DNA from: Candidatus Woesearchaeota archaeon | GTDB lineage: Archaea > Nanobdellota > Nanobdellia > Woesearchaeales > CALCXY01 | DNA: 49,955 nt | Assembly: GCA_937906345.1 (NCBI GenBank) | Contig: CALCXY010000034.1 | Coordinates: 1-49,955, forward strand | Reading direction: 5' to 3' | Part shown: positions 368 to 11,056 of the stretch, piece after piece | Layout: each line of letters starts with the position of its first letter | Position numbering within the stretch: position 1 is the stretch's first letter | Notes under the pieces: generated by a model | The model's database searches: none | Seen by the model: only the letters and a program-made list of their open reading frames with translations | What the model was told of the DNA's origin: nothing | Position numbers and translations under genes: made by a program

Positions 368-429
368 GAAGAGTAGTAACATTTTTAAACAATCTAAGAC
401 TTTATTCTATGCAAGGGGACGTAGTATAA

Positions 430-449
430 ACCAATTTTATTGGGTACAT
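430..449 (+). other. predicted 20-nt noncanonical intron in the D-loop of tRNA-Trp
   Basis: The helix GTAT (424-427)/GTAC (444-447) has four pairs (one G-U). It is flanked by a 3-nt bulge AAA (428-430) on the 5' strand and ATC (448-450) on the 3' strand. The inner helix CCAAT (431-435)/ATTGG (439-443) has a TTT loop and stacks directly on the central helix. Cutting each bulge after its second base, as the archaeal splicing endonuclease does, removes 430-449. There is no outer exon helix, so this would be a relaxed motif. Confidence 0.65.
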
Positions 450-473
450 CCTGGCGATTATTACTGGCTCCAG

Positions 474-512
474 TAATGGAACGATGAGTCGAAAGACAAT
501 GACTGTGGTGAT
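474..512 (+). other. 39-nt intron at canonical position 37/38 of tRNA-Trp
   Basis: The junctions fit a bulge-helix-bulge. Central strands CTCC (468-471) and GGTG (507-510) give three C-G pairs and one U-U. Bulge AGT (472-474) is cut after G473 and bulge ATA (511-513) after T512. Inside is a small hairpin GTC-GAAA-GAC (488-497). Archaeal tRNA-Trp introns at this site are common and in some euryarchaea act as C/D guide RNAs. This one looks too short for that. Confidence 0.8.
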
Positions 513-547
513 ACCGGTGGATTTGGGTTCGAATCCCAACGTCCCCA

Positions 548-1174
548 TTATTTTACTATCTCGAGATACCTATCTACATGCTTCTTATTTCTTGGTTGAA
601 CAAAGGTAAAAAACTTGTCAATTTCTTGTTGTTTTGACAGGTAAAATTTCCAATGAATATAATTACCGGATACTCCTTTTTGAATTCTAGTTGGTTTAAA
701 TCCGAGTAGTAAAAAAGCTCTATGCACTGACTGGGTAGTTTCCAAGCAAGCAAATTTTATCTGGATTTGTTTAAAATAATCGTATTTACGATAAACACAT
801 CCGTCTGTATCAAATATTCCTCTGATACAACATTTTAACCAGAGCTTCCTTTTAAATATCCACTCTGGAATCGTAGCTTTGTATTTAAGTTTACTTCCAA
901 CTTTCAGCTTTGCATACAAAAATTGTTCTCCAACAAAAACAGACACATTAGTAAGTTGGTTACAAAATTTTAAATCTTTAAAATAAAACTTATACCCAAA
1001 ATATTCTTCAAATAATTTTTTAACATAGTTCTTGTAAGCTACTTCGTTTTTATGAAAAGTTACTGTTGAATGATATTTGTTTTTATAATCTTTATATAAA
1101 CATCCATCACCTAACATGATTCCAACAATTTCTGCCAAATTTGAATTGTATTTTAATTTATTTTTAAATTTCAT
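548..1174 (-). CDS. LAGLIDADG homing endonuclease, free-standing
   Basis: This 208-residue protein has two LAGLIDADG-type helices. One is near residue 16 (AEIVGIMLGDGC, acidic catalytic Asp) and one near residue 115 (IRGIFDTDGCVY). That makes it a two-domain, monomer-type DNA endonuclease that would cut a long target site. The start is an ATG preceded by GGTGAT at a 6-nt spacing. The stop codon lies 1 nt past the 3' end of the tRNA-Trp gene, on the opposite strand. The gene is outside both predicted introns, so it is not a classic intron-encoded enzyme. The endonuclease may be a remnant of invasion at this tRNA or may target another locus. Length and motifs look intact. Confidence 0.88.
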   Translation of the reverse strand: MKFKNKLKYNSNLAEIVGIMLGDGCLYKDYKNKYHSTVTFHKNEVAYKNYVKKLFEEYFGYKFYFKDLKFCNQLTNVSVFVGEQFLYAKLKVGSKLKYKATIPEWIFKRKLWLKCCIRGIFDTDGCVYRKYDYFKQIQIKFACLETTQSVHRAFLLLGFKPTRIQKGVSGNYIHWKFYLSKQQEIDKFFTFVQPRNKKHVDRYLEIVK

Positions 1175-7120: not shown

Positions 7121-10100
7121 TTATTCCACCAATATTTCTCTATGCACAACTCTCCTTACCTTATCATTACTAATCACAAATCTTGCATCATATAATCCAG
7201 GCTCTAGTGTCGGTAATTCAAGGAATAATTTCCTAGATTGTGTTCCTCTCTTTGATAAATCAAAATGCCTACTCTTAGCAACTGCTCCAAATTCAGTTAA
7301 GGTTGCTGTCATTTGCAAATTTCTTAAATTAGTCTCTCCATCATTCCTTACTGTTATTTGAGCAAAATATAAGCTAGATCCTCTAACACTTCCTGCCCCT
7401 CTCAATGAAATATGCTCTACTTTTAATCCTGGTTGAGGCTTTGAAAGACATTGTCCATTTAAACATCCAAATCTACATGATTGTACAAAATTTGGCGTAT
7501 CACTAGCTACACAACTACTTGTTGGAGTTCCTGCACTCAAACATACAAAGCTTCTAAAGTTTTGCACAATATCATTACCACTGCAAGTAAACTTCCCTAT
7601 AATATTATCAGCACCACAATCAGTATTCACTAAACATAAAATATTTTGGAATCCGCAGAAACTTGCACCTGTTCCAGGATTAGTACATGTATCCTGAGTA
7701 AATGGATTATTATCATCACAATCATTATCATTAAAACATGCAACATCAGTACATGCATCGTTTTCACATACTTGAGTATTATTACAATCTTGGAATAATG
7801 TAGGAATATCTTGAATCTGACATGTTGCACTTCCTGTTCCAGCATTTAAACAAGTGTGATCCCTAAACGTATCAGACACATTACCATTAATATCACAAAA
7901 TGGATTTCCTAAAAATCCATCTATTCCACAATCAGTTTCTAGATTACAAGCAACATTTGCACAAGCCGCATTCTCACAAACTTGATTATTAGCACAATCA
8001 GTTACTAATTGAGTAGAATCTACAAAACTACAACTACTATTTGCTTGACCTGCTAAATTACAAGTATGATCTCTAAACGTATCAGACACATTACCATCAC
8101 CATCACAAAAAGTATTACCTAGTAAACCATCAACACCACAATCACTCTCTTGGCTACATGCTACATTGAAACAAGCACCGTTTTCACACGTTTCACTTGC
8201 TGTACAATCATCTATAACTTGGAATACTCCTCCTACTTGACATTCAGATGCATTTGTTCCTGGATTAACACAGGTATGATCAATAAACGTGTCAGCTGCA
8301 TCATCATTACCATCACAAAAAGGACTTCCTAAAAAACCATCTACTCCACAATCACTCTCTTGACTACATGCTATAGCAGTATTCAAACAAGTAGCATTAG
8401 CAGCACCTGGATTAATACAATCATCTTGAGTATTCACATTCCCATCATCACAATCACCATTAACAAAACAAGCAACAGTATGACAAGCGCCATTCTCACA
8501 AGCTTCACTAGCAGTACAATCAGTTGCTAACTGCACATTATCATTAAAATTACAAAAACTCGTACCAGTCCCAGCATTATTACACAAATGAGACCTAAAA
8601 GTATCAGACACATCCCCACTACCATCACAAAAAGTATTACCTAGTAAACCATCAACACCACAATCACCATTAACAAAACAAGTAATAGCAGTATTCACAC
8701 AAGTAGCATTAGCAGTACCAGGACCAACACAAACATCCTCAGTATTCACATTCCCATCATCACAATCACCATTAACAAAACACGCAACAGTCTGACAAGC
8801 ACCATTCTCACAAGCTTCACTAGCAGTACAATCATCAAATAACAAAACAGTATCTACTGCACTACAAGAACTAGTATTAGTTCCTGCATTATTACATGTA
8901 TGATCTCTTAACGTATCAGACACATCTCCACTACCATCACAAAAAGTATTACCTAAAAAACCATCTATTCCACAATCACTCTCTTGATTACATACTATAG
9001 CAGTATTCAAACAAAAACTTGCTCCTGTTCCAGGACTTATGCAATCATCTTGAGTATTCACATTCCCATCATCACAATCACCATTAACAAAACACGCAAC
9101 ACTCACACATGCCCCATTTTCACATGTTTCAGTTGCAGTACAATCATCAATTACCATAGGAGTTGTAGTTGCAGTACAAGCTGCGTTTCCAGTCCCACCA
9201 TTATTACATGTATGATCTATGAAAGTGTCAGCTGCATCATTATTACCATCACAAAAAGGCTGTCCTAAAAAACCATCAACACCACAATCTCCTTCAACAA
9301 AACACGCAATAGGATTATTTTGACATACTGAATTAACAGTTCCAGCATTTAAGCACAAATCTTCAGTATTTGCATCATTATCATCACAATCACCATTAAC
9401 AAAACAATTAAAATAAAAAACATTTACACTTGAAGATGCACTAGCACCTTTAGGATCAGTTAAAACAAAATCAACAAGAGTTTGCCCTAAAAAATTAAGA
9501 GTAGGAGTTATTGTTAATACATGAGTTAAAGCATCAACACTTGTGATGATTCCATTTGAAGGATTAGCAGTCCATGTTAAACTTGATTGAGGATCATCTA
9601 TATCATCCCCATATAAATCCAAATCAAAAATGATTTGTTTATTCTTCACTTGTTCTTGATCTGGAATAGGTAAAATAAAAGGTGCATTATTTGTTGTTGA
9701 CATTTGTCTAGCAATATCTAAATCAGTAGTTAAAATAACAAAAGAATCTTGAATAGTGTTAAATCCATTAAGAGCAATAGTATAAGTGTATGTTCCTGTA
9801 ACAAATCCTGATAAGACTAATTGTCCAAGCGCATCTGTAACTCCATTAAAACCATTATTAACAGTTATAGCAGCTCCTGGTAACACTGTTCCTGTTCCTT
9901 CTTCACTTATACTCCAAGTAACTGAAGATGTTGGTTGCTTATCTACAAAAACGGTTTTACTAATACTATCTTTAATATTATCTAACGCAGTAGCAGGACA
10001 ATTAAGTGCTTCACCTTCTAAAGAAACTAAAAACTGCCCATCATTTGGAAATGTAACATCAAAATTTACTTTTTTCGCTTTATCATCAGGATTAGAAGCA

Positions 10101-11056
10101 AATTGTATAGTAGTATCTAAAATATTTGTACCTGATTTTGTAACTTTTAAATCAACCTCAGTTCCTAAAGGCGTATTAACCCCTCCATTATTCATATAAT
10201 TACTAATTTTTTCTACATCAAAGGTAACTAATTCTCCTTCAACAGGAAAACTATCTCTTGGAAGTAAATCATTTAAGATTGTATAACATTTATTTAAGGG
10301 CCTTGCTGGTTGCACTTGTATTACTTTAGTAGAAGCTTGATTTACTTTTGAAGAACATTGACAATCTGTAACATCAGTTGTCGCTTCAACTGTAAATTGA
10401 CCAGTTGATGCAGGTGTAAAAGTAAAGGTTCTCTTATCAGTAGAATCCATCCTTAAGTTAAGATTTTTAGTTTTTGAAAAAACAACTGTATTGGATGCAT
10501 CTTTTACAGTAATTTTAAGCTTTGTTTCAGCTGAATAATGATCATCAAATCCATTTGGAGTAAAAAAAGGAGGTTGTTGATTTTCTCTAAAAGCACTTTG
10601 AGTTGTAGTAGAGATATCAGCATCAATACCTATTACTATAGGTTCATTTACAAATCCTGAATTAACCACTTTAATAGATACAGGACTTCTACAATTCTTT
10701 GCCTGGTTAAAGAAATTGTTATAAGTTATAGCACCATCTCCTTGAGAAAATACTCTAAATTCTTTAGGAATAAAACAATTAGCATAAAAATATTCTCCAT
10801 AATAAACAATATTATTGGTGCTTGGAAAAGGAATAACTAATTTATTAGATCCTCCTGAATTTTGATCAAATATTTTATTTCCTACATTAACACAATTAGT
10901 ATCTTGACACTTGTAAACTACACCTTGGACTTGTGTAACAGGATTATTATTAGATTTCTCAAAGAAAAAATTCTTTTCATCAAAGGTTGCAGAAGCTACC
11001 ACTATCTGCATCAAAAGGATTAATGTTAGTACCCCCAAAACTCTCTTTACACCCAT
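7121..11056 (-). CDS. giant secreted Cys-rich repeat surface protein
   Basis: The 1311-residue protein has a signal peptide (VLGVLTLILLMQIVVASA). About 530 residues of beta-type domains follow, including a carboxypeptidase-regulatory-like segment (GAAITVNNGFNGVTDALGQL, near 395) and a cadherin/Ig-like segment near 455-545. Residues of about 550-1205 are Cys-rich modules: five short (about 34 residues, DCDDGN..T.D.C) and seven long (about 70 residues, DCG.DG.LG..FCDG). A beta domain of about 105 residues ends the protein. No C-terminal TM helix is visible, so it is released or held by other proteins. Many modules contain N-X-S/T sequons. The Asp-rich DCDDGNVNT loops suggest calcium binding. 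Its job is unknown; adhesion or envelope structure is plausible. Confidence 0.75.
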   Translation of the reverse strand: MGVKRVLGVLTLILLMQIVVASATFDEKNFFFEKSNNNPVTQVQGVVYKCQDTNCVNVGNKIFDQNSGGSNKLVIPFPSTNNIVYYGEYFYANCFIPKEFRVFSQGDGAITYNNFFNQAKNCRSPVSIKVVNSGFVNEPIVIGIDADISTTTQSAFRENQQPPFFTPNGFDDHYSAETKLKITVKDASNTVVFSKTKNLNLRMDSTDKRTFTFTPASTGQFTVEATTDVTDCQCSSKVNQASTKVIQVQPARPLNKCYTILNDLLPRDSFPVEGELVTFDVEKISNYMNNGGVNTPLGTEVDLKVTKSGTNILDTTIQFASNPDDKAKKVNFDVTFPNDGQFLVSLEGEALNCPATALDNIKDSISKTVFVDKQPTSSVTWSISEEGTGTVLPGAAITVNNGFNGVTDALGQLVLSGFVTGTYTYTIALNGFNTIQDSFVILTTDLDIARQMSTTNNAPFILPIPDQEQVKNKQIIFDLDLYGDDIDDPQSSLTWTANPSNGIITSVDALTHVLTITPTLNFLGQTLVDFVLTDPKGASASSSVNVFYFNCFVNGDCDDNDANTEDLCLNAGTVNSVCQNNPIACFVEGDCGVDGFLGQPFCDGNNDAADTFIDHTCNNGGTGNAACTATTTPMVIDDCTATETCENGACVSVACFVNGDCDDGNVNTQDDCISPGTGASFCLNTAIVCNQESDCGIDGFLGNTFCDGSGDVSDTLRDHTCNNAGTNTSSCSAVDTVLLFDDCTASEACENGACQTVACFVNGDCDDGNVNTEDVCVGPGTANATCVNTAITCFVNGDCGVDGLLGNTFCDGSGDVSDTFRSHLCNNAGTGTSFCNFNDNVQLATDCTASEACENGACHTVACFVNGDCDDGNVNTQDDCINPGAANATCLNTAIACSQESDCGVDGFLGSPFCDGNDDAADTFIDHTCVNPGTNASECQVGGVFQVIDDCTASETCENGACFNVACSQESDCGVDGLLGNTFCDGDGNVSDTFRDHTCNLAGQANSSCSFVDSTQLVTDCANNQVCENAACANVACNLETDCGIDGFLGNPFCDINGNVSDTFRDHTCLNAGTGSATCQIQDIPTLFQDCNNTQVCENDACTDVACFNDNDCDDNNPFTQDTCTNPGTGASFCGFQNILCLVNTDCGADNIIGKFTCSGNDIVQNFRSFVCLSAGTPTSSCVASDTPNFVQSCRFGCLNGQCLSKPQPGLKVEHISLRGAGSVRGSSLYFAQITVRNDGETNLRNLQMTATLTEFGAVAKSRHFDLSKRGTQSRKLFLELPTLEPGLYDARFVISNDKVRRVVHREILVE
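7442..9408 (-). repeat. array of twelve Cys-rich module repeats inside the giant surface gene
   Basis: In protein order the modules run A B A B A B A B B B A B, with A about 34 and B about 70 residues. Several copies are nearly identical in DNA. For example, the stretch covering ATTCACATTCCCATCATCAC recurs near 8430, 8740 and 9055 with the same flanks. Such identity points to recent duplication or gene conversion. Outer copies have diverged more than the middle ones. Confidence 0.85.

Follow-up and report, generated by a model that had tools for sequence, protein, structure and literature searches.

A predicted D-loop intron at position 15/16 of tRNA-Trp in Woesearchaeales

The tRNA-Trp gene at the beginning of contig CALCXY010000034.1 (C34 in our numbering), from an uncultured Candidatus Woesearchaeota archaeon of the order Woesearchaeales (DPANN), carries extra nucleotides in its D-arm in addition to an intron at position 37/38. 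The 49,955-nt stretch that was analysed is hereafter called the window. The locus raises the question of whether the D-arm insert is removed by the tRNA splicing machinery or belongs to the mature molecule. From the sequence comparisons described below, we consider it very probable that nucleotides 430-449 form a genuine bulge-helix-bulge (BHB) intron between A15 and C16, which would be cut by EndA and whose flanking exons would be joined by RtcB.

The interrupted gene and the fold of its precursor

The window belongs to a MAG of 1.64 Mb in 123 contigs with a completeness of 77%. Its tRNA-Trp gene was matched neither by ARAGORN nor by Rfam at the gathering cut-off, but it was recovered end to end, with a score of 99.3 bits, by a covariance model made for the purpose from 13 tRNA-Trp sequences, including that of the window without its D-loop insert. 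A preliminary description had placed the gene at 415-546; the start was right, whereas the end has to be moved by one nucleotide, as the discriminator A547 belongs to the gene (Table 1). The 39-nt intron at 37/38 was found where that description had put it. Finders that do not model such introns, here ARAGORN and Rfam, miss the gene, and tRNA-Trp would therefore be scored as absent from genomes of this kind. Elsewhere in the window, nucleotides 7121-11056 of the reverse strand encode a protein of 1311 aa that is predicted to be secreted and contains numerous Cys/Asp-rich repeats, each about 50 aa long.

Table 1 Features of the tRNA-Trp locus in the window, with the basis of each assignment
Feature	Position	Strand	Basis
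TATA-like box TTTTTAAA, putative, ~29 nt upstream of the tRNA	382-389	+	sequence only
tRNA-Trp(CCA) gene, two introns	415-547	+	covariance model, full length; orthologues
Acceptor stem	415-421/540-546	+	sequence
Exon 1, positions 1-15 (acceptor 5' strand, U8, A9, G10-U13, A14, A15)	415-429	+	orthologues
GTAT (G10-U13), 5' strand shared by the D-stem (mature tRNA) and the central helix with 444-447 (precursor)	424-427	+	
5' bulge, AAA	428-430	+	fold
Predicted 20-nt D-loop intron at 15/16	430-449	+	no insert at this join in orthologues; introns at the site in 48 genomes; covariation
CCAAT, 5' strand of the intron-internal helix, pairs with 439-443	431-435	+	fold; first three pairs covary
ATTGG, 3' strand of the intron-internal helix	439-443	+	fold, covariation
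GTAC at the intron 3' end, paired to 424-427 of the D-stem	444-447	+	fold, covariation
3' bulge, ATC	448-450	+	fold
Exon 2, positions 16-37 (G18-G19 at 453-454)	450-473	+	orthologues
Anticodon CCA	470-472	+	sequence
Canonical 39-nt intron at 37/38	474-512	+	homologous intron in 84/90 tRNA-Trp genes
Guide-like TGGAACG, then D'-box-like ATGA	477-487	+	conserved in relatives; putative function, from known tRNA-Trp box C/D introns
C'-box-like AATGA, putative, after a GTC-GAAA-GAC hairpin (488-497)	498-502	+	sequence and relatives
Exon 3, positions 38-73	513-547	+	sequence, orthologues
T-arm	523-539	+	sequence
Discriminator	547	+	sequence
Free-standing LAGLIDADG homing endonuclease gene, convergent with tRNA-Trp, abutting its 3' end	548-1174	-	Pfam LAGLIDADG_3, 1e-05

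The D-arm had been described as 20 nt too long, and the orthologues agree: the region from nt 10 to nt 26 spans 39 nt in the window versus 19 nt (sometimes 18) in intronless orthologues, leaving 20 extra nucleotides, ACCAATTTTATTGGGTACAT, between A15 and C16. When the whole pre-tRNA was folded without constraints, the MFE structure (-42.9 kcal/mol) included exactly the elements proposed earlier, namely the GTAT/GTAC helix, both bulges, and the CCAAT/ATTGG hairpin. A 4-bp central helix thus lies between two 3-nt bulges on opposite strands. A helix is present on the intron side, whereas no exon-exon helix is found beyond the 3' bulge as in the strict hBHBh' form, and the motif is, in the modelled structure, of the relaxed HBh' type, an accepted BHB subtype (PMC6379350). 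The relaxed BHB of the preliminary description is thereby upheld and refined to a form without the outer exon-exon helix. A group I intron was rejected: the insert has 20 nt versus a catalytic core of about 200 nt or more, and Rfam gave no match anywhere in the window.

Excision by EndA and joining by RtcB are the most likely fate of the insert. In the precursor, GTAC (444-447) would pair with G10-U13, and the CCAAT/ATTGG hairpin would cap the intron. EndA would then cut at 429|430 and 449|450, two bases into each 3-nt bulge, and RtcB would ligate the tRNA-Trp exons, upon which the freed G10-U13 would pair with positions 22-25 to give the cloverleaf. The 37/38 intron would be removed in the same way. 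Since the D-stem strand is also the pairing partner of the intron's 3' end, the precursor helix and the mature D-arm are mutually exclusive. Cuts at these points yield the D-loop AACCTGGCGA with G18-G19, as first proposed and in agreement with the orthologues, in a mature tRNA of 74 nt.

Orthologues and covariation at the 15/16 join

In intronless relatives, the D-arm reads GTAT-AA-CCTGGCTAGAATA, and in the window GTAT-AA-[ACCAATTTTATTGGGTACAT]-CCTGGCGATTATT. Orthologues of the same order without an insert read GTATAACCTGGCTAG..., straight through the join GTATAA|CCTGG. The preliminary description had pointed to related tRNA-Trp genes as a check on the intron, and the lack of the extra D-arm bases in intronless orthologues favours it.

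Of the 353 genomes searched in the order, 48 (about one in seven), from 34 genera and 22 families, had inserts at exactly the 15/16 join; this count is a lower bound, as the search patterns require conserved flanks. A pattern demanding GTACA matched 33 of the 353 genomes, 32 of them real (the match in G211 arose by chance and is not a tRNA gene), and a pattern without GTACA but with the anticodon demanded matched 45, of which 43 were real; the reversed-pattern control of the latter search gave no match. In these 43 genomes, the pairing 3' end of the intron was always GTAC or, in two genomes, GTAT. Two pattern matches were set aside upon inspection: that in G188 is not a tRNA gene, and that in G062 has its insert at another place in the D-loop. 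All inserts at 15/16 fold as a relaxed bulge-helix-bulge, and in three genes (L084, L085, and L107) the insert is the sole intron, the removal of which gives a standard tRNA-Trp. The 15/16 join is a recurrent intron site in the order and not a one-off.

The inserts measured 17-39 nt in the main set and were slightly longer in a few other genes. The shortness of the 20-nt intron had been regarded as noteworthy; its length is in fact ordinary, as published tRNA introns range from 11 to 129 nt, with most medians between 12 and 25 nt (PMC4090602).

A stricter pattern applied across the phylum matched 18 of 199 genomes of the order versus none of 172 from other orders, whose D-arms may differ and escape the pattern. 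Scanning 84,980 prokaryote species gave 41 matching stretches, and the 40 that are tRNA-Trp came only from Woesearchaeota, Nanoarchaeota, or archaeal MAGs lacking a group name. The remaining match (L213, labelled Halobacteria) was inspected and is not a tRNA. Separately, D-arm inserts at a different place, after GGCTAG, were seen in the tRNA-Trp genes L039 (G034), which is without a 37/38 intron, and G062:C8:154835-154887.

The comparison also bears on the exact splice points. With both cuts placed behind the second bulge base, every intron-bearing gene gives GTATAA|CCTGG or the C/T variants of it found in orthologues. The intronless genes shown have A at position 15 and C or T at position 16, and the introns begin with A, G, or T. 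A shift by one base would place a variable intron base at the constant A15/Y16, unlike in the orthologues, and the cut frame is therefore fixed. It is thus very unlikely that the intron is real but spliced one or more bases away from 15/16: the 3' site of a relaxed BHB may be less constrained, and the exon-side helix is absent here, but only 15/16 turns every intron-bearing gene into the consensus GTATAA[CT][CT]TGG, and it is the terminal bases of the intron that vary, not A15 or Y16.

Pairing within the inserts was analyzed in 43 distinct sequences. Cells were paired in 98.3% of cases versus 79.2% after shuffling (0 of 500 shuffles were as high), and the covariation score was 0.430 versus 0.106 when shuffled and at most 0.141 when slid; the cells counted are sequences rather than independent events, so that related genomes inflate these numbers. 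The first intron pair was CG in 24 sequences, GC in 18, and UA in one, without any break, and the second was CG in 18, GC in 18, AU in three, UA in two, and UG in two. The flip of the intron helix from CC/GG to GG/CC is present across several families. Because the D-stem hardly varies, neither does the central helix, and its changes are of two kinds, GTAT at the intron end (two genomes) and GTAC in the D-stem (G290, where the pair with the intron end goes from U-G to C-G), and both keep the pairing. Given the pairing 3' end in all 43 genomes, the lack of reversed-pattern matches, and the covarying helix, the D-loop insert is not due to chance. Since base-pair changes compensate one another among the roughly one in seven relatives that are interrupted at this D-loop site, the splice structure is real.

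These data leave little room for a retained insert, which would give a mature tRNA-Trp with an expanded, hairpin-bearing D-arm. The hairpin of the insert is stable on its own, but its end pairs with G10-U13 and would abolish the mature D-stem, and the geometry of the BHB bulges is kept in all 43 distinct sequences. Moreover, the insert is absent from most orthologues, including some of the same genus: within g135, it is found in G177, G178, G179, G181, G183, G186, G189, and G193, but not in G187 and G192. Retention is thus extremely unlikely, and presence and absence inside one genus make gain and loss of the intron directly traceable.

That the gene is instead a decayed copy or an assembly error, unused by the organism, is scarcely credible. 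The assembly is fragmented and incomplete, as noted above, but the exons are intact with complete pairing, the same architecture occurs in 47 other genomes, and no second tRNA-Trp of comparable score was found among the covariance-model matches listed for the window genome. Because the assembly is 77% complete, the organism may nevertheless possess a second, uninterrupted tRNA-Trp gene.

Additional inserts in the variable region and the T-loop are predicted, from length and pairing, in some of the 71 tRNA-Trp genes that were parsed (the row for L087 was not used). Four inserts are predicted in L150 (G178) and five in L080 (G084), two of the latter in the D-arm; such numbers would exceed the maximum of three introns per tRNA gene reported previously (PMC4033280). 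Further predicted inserts (second D-arm site, variable region, T-loop) were also noted in L211/L255 (G350), L025 (G031), and L250-L252.

Splicing enzymes and neighbouring endonuclease genes

The window genome contains one gene for EndA (G000:C36:721-981), of single-unit type and about 180 aa. With this genome included, a single gene per genome was found in 45 of 47 genomes, with single-unit length in those read. The closest solved relative of the window-genome enzyme is the alpha subunit of Nanoarchaeum equitans (3IEY_A, E 2.4e-34), and the regions of the catalytic Tyr, His, and Lys are kept in its alignment to the homotetrameric enzyme of M. jannaschii. No gene for a beta subunit was found in the 47 genomes at E ≤ 0.01. 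As the N. equitans beta subunit is detectable from the window-genome EndA (4e-13), a beta gene of this type would be expected among the matches. In published work, the forms of EndA that cut relaxed motifs efficiently are (alpha-beta)2 and epsilon2, and homotetramers have narrow specificity (PMC6379350). The order may have either a homomeric EndA that accepts a wider range of motifs or a second subunit that has diverged strongly. Its apparent single-gene EndA allows a clear test of whether efficient processing of relaxed motifs is confined to (alpha-beta)2 and epsilon2 enzymes, as the rule states.

A gene for RtcB was present in all eight genomes searched, including that of the window. In the latter (G000:C87:17951-20749, reverse strand), it was matched in two pieces within one open frame of 987 aa and thus seems to carry an in-frame insert, possibly an intein.

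The LAGLIDADG endonuclease encoded next to tRNA-Trp has two motifs, GIMLGDG and GIFDTDG, and its stop codon abuts A547; the gene is a neighbour and not a part of the tRNA-Trp intron. Relatives of this homing endonuclease gene (HEG) adjoin four other tRNA genes of the window genome (L011, L014, L112, and L116). With one locus taken per genome (other genomes, L169-L197), a tRNA was found within 200 nt in 19 of 30 HEG loci, where about 1.3% would be expected (P ~1e-28). In 17 of the 19, the HEG reads toward the tRNA. The genes abut or overlap tRNA genes, and the C-terminus is sometimes encoded in the tRNA antisense strand. A tRNA-Gln(UUG)-like gene at G000:C52:21252-21350 (L014, ~1501-1600) adjoins another LAGLIDADG gene and appears to be interrupted directly after position 9 by some 24 nt; a similar long form of tRNA-Gln occurs in L171.

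It could be asked whether HEGs targeting tRNA genes spread or maintain the tRNA introns of the order, through co-conversion of introns next to the HEG or because the introns protect the target. The abutment at tRNA-Trp and the frequency of tRNA neighbours are consistent with this idea, as is the length of the HEG-adjacent tRNAs, which exceed 92 nt in 13 of 19 cases versus 33 of 91 in the background (p = 0.02). However, the HEG profile is derived from tRNA-neighbouring genes, most D-loop introns have no HEG nearby, and at tRNA-Trp the HEG and the D-loop intron were not significantly associated (6/40 vs 1/39, p = 0.11, uncorrected for kinship); the HEG is thus not supported as the cause of the D-loop intron. 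Such spread seems to us unlikely on balance, and we are similarly doubtful that the tRNA introns of Woesearchaeales, the D-loop intron included, and the tRNA-abutting LAGLIDADG genes make up one mobile system. In such a system, the endonuclease would cut uninterrupted tRNA genes, repair would copy the HEG plus neighbouring introns, and the introns would shield the recipient gene from further cutting. This proposal concerns the origin of the introns and not their splicing, and it is compatible with the splicing by EndA and RtcB that we favour.

The 37/38 intron and comparison with known systems

The intron at 37/38 is present in 84 of 90 distinct tRNA-Trp genes. A TGGA[GA]NN stretch occurs in 82 of these 84 introns, and the next four bases are NTGA in 69 of the 82 (ATGA in 45, CTGA in 13, and TTGA in 11). 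The fifth base upstream of the D/D'-like box faces C34 (470). The guide stretch and its NTGA box can be read as a conserved sign of guide function, and the intron probably guides 2'-O-methylation of C34. In Haloferax volcanii, the tRNA-Trp intron carries box C/D elements (Omer 2000, Clouet d'Orval 2001, and Singh 2004, cited in PMC4090602); it also lies at 37/38, and the fifth base upstream of its box likewise faces C34. The intron of the window is shorter (39 nt), the box in the order is mostly ATGA rather than CTGA, and the second guide (position 39) of the H. volcanii intron was not identified in the 37/38 introns studied here.

Sugahara and colleagues reportedly described, between 2006 and 2009, BHB introns at noncanonical positions in the tRNAs of archaea, Thermoproteales among them. 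Such introns are documented in Thermoproteales and other archaea (Chan et al. 2011, PMC3218864; PMC4090602; PMC6379350), and D-loop sites are known as a class (PMC6379350). In the open-access literature searched, with tRNA databases outside its scope, no description of the 15/16 site of tRNA-Trp or of tRNA introns in Woesearchaeota was found. D-loop tRNA introns are thus of a known kind, while the lineage-wide 15/16 site of tRNA-Trp appears to be undescribed; it adds a fixed, noncanonical tRNA intron site to a DPANN group for which we found no description of tRNA introns.

Nanoarchaeum equitans has split tRNAs and an (alpha-beta)2 EndA (PDB 3IEY), whereas the tRNA of the window is interrupted and not split. 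ARMAN (Micrarchaeum) also belongs to DPANN and has noncanonical tRNA introns, which are cut by an epsilon2 EndA (PDB 4FZ2), but its EndA is a three-unit fusion, in contrast to the single-unit enzyme of the window genome. Finally, the introns of the Thermoproteales type are likewise short, located outside 37/38, relaxed in their BHB, and cut after the second base of a 3-nt bulge; those described here differ in occupying one fixed join (15/16) of one isoacceptor, recurrent across a whole DPANN order.
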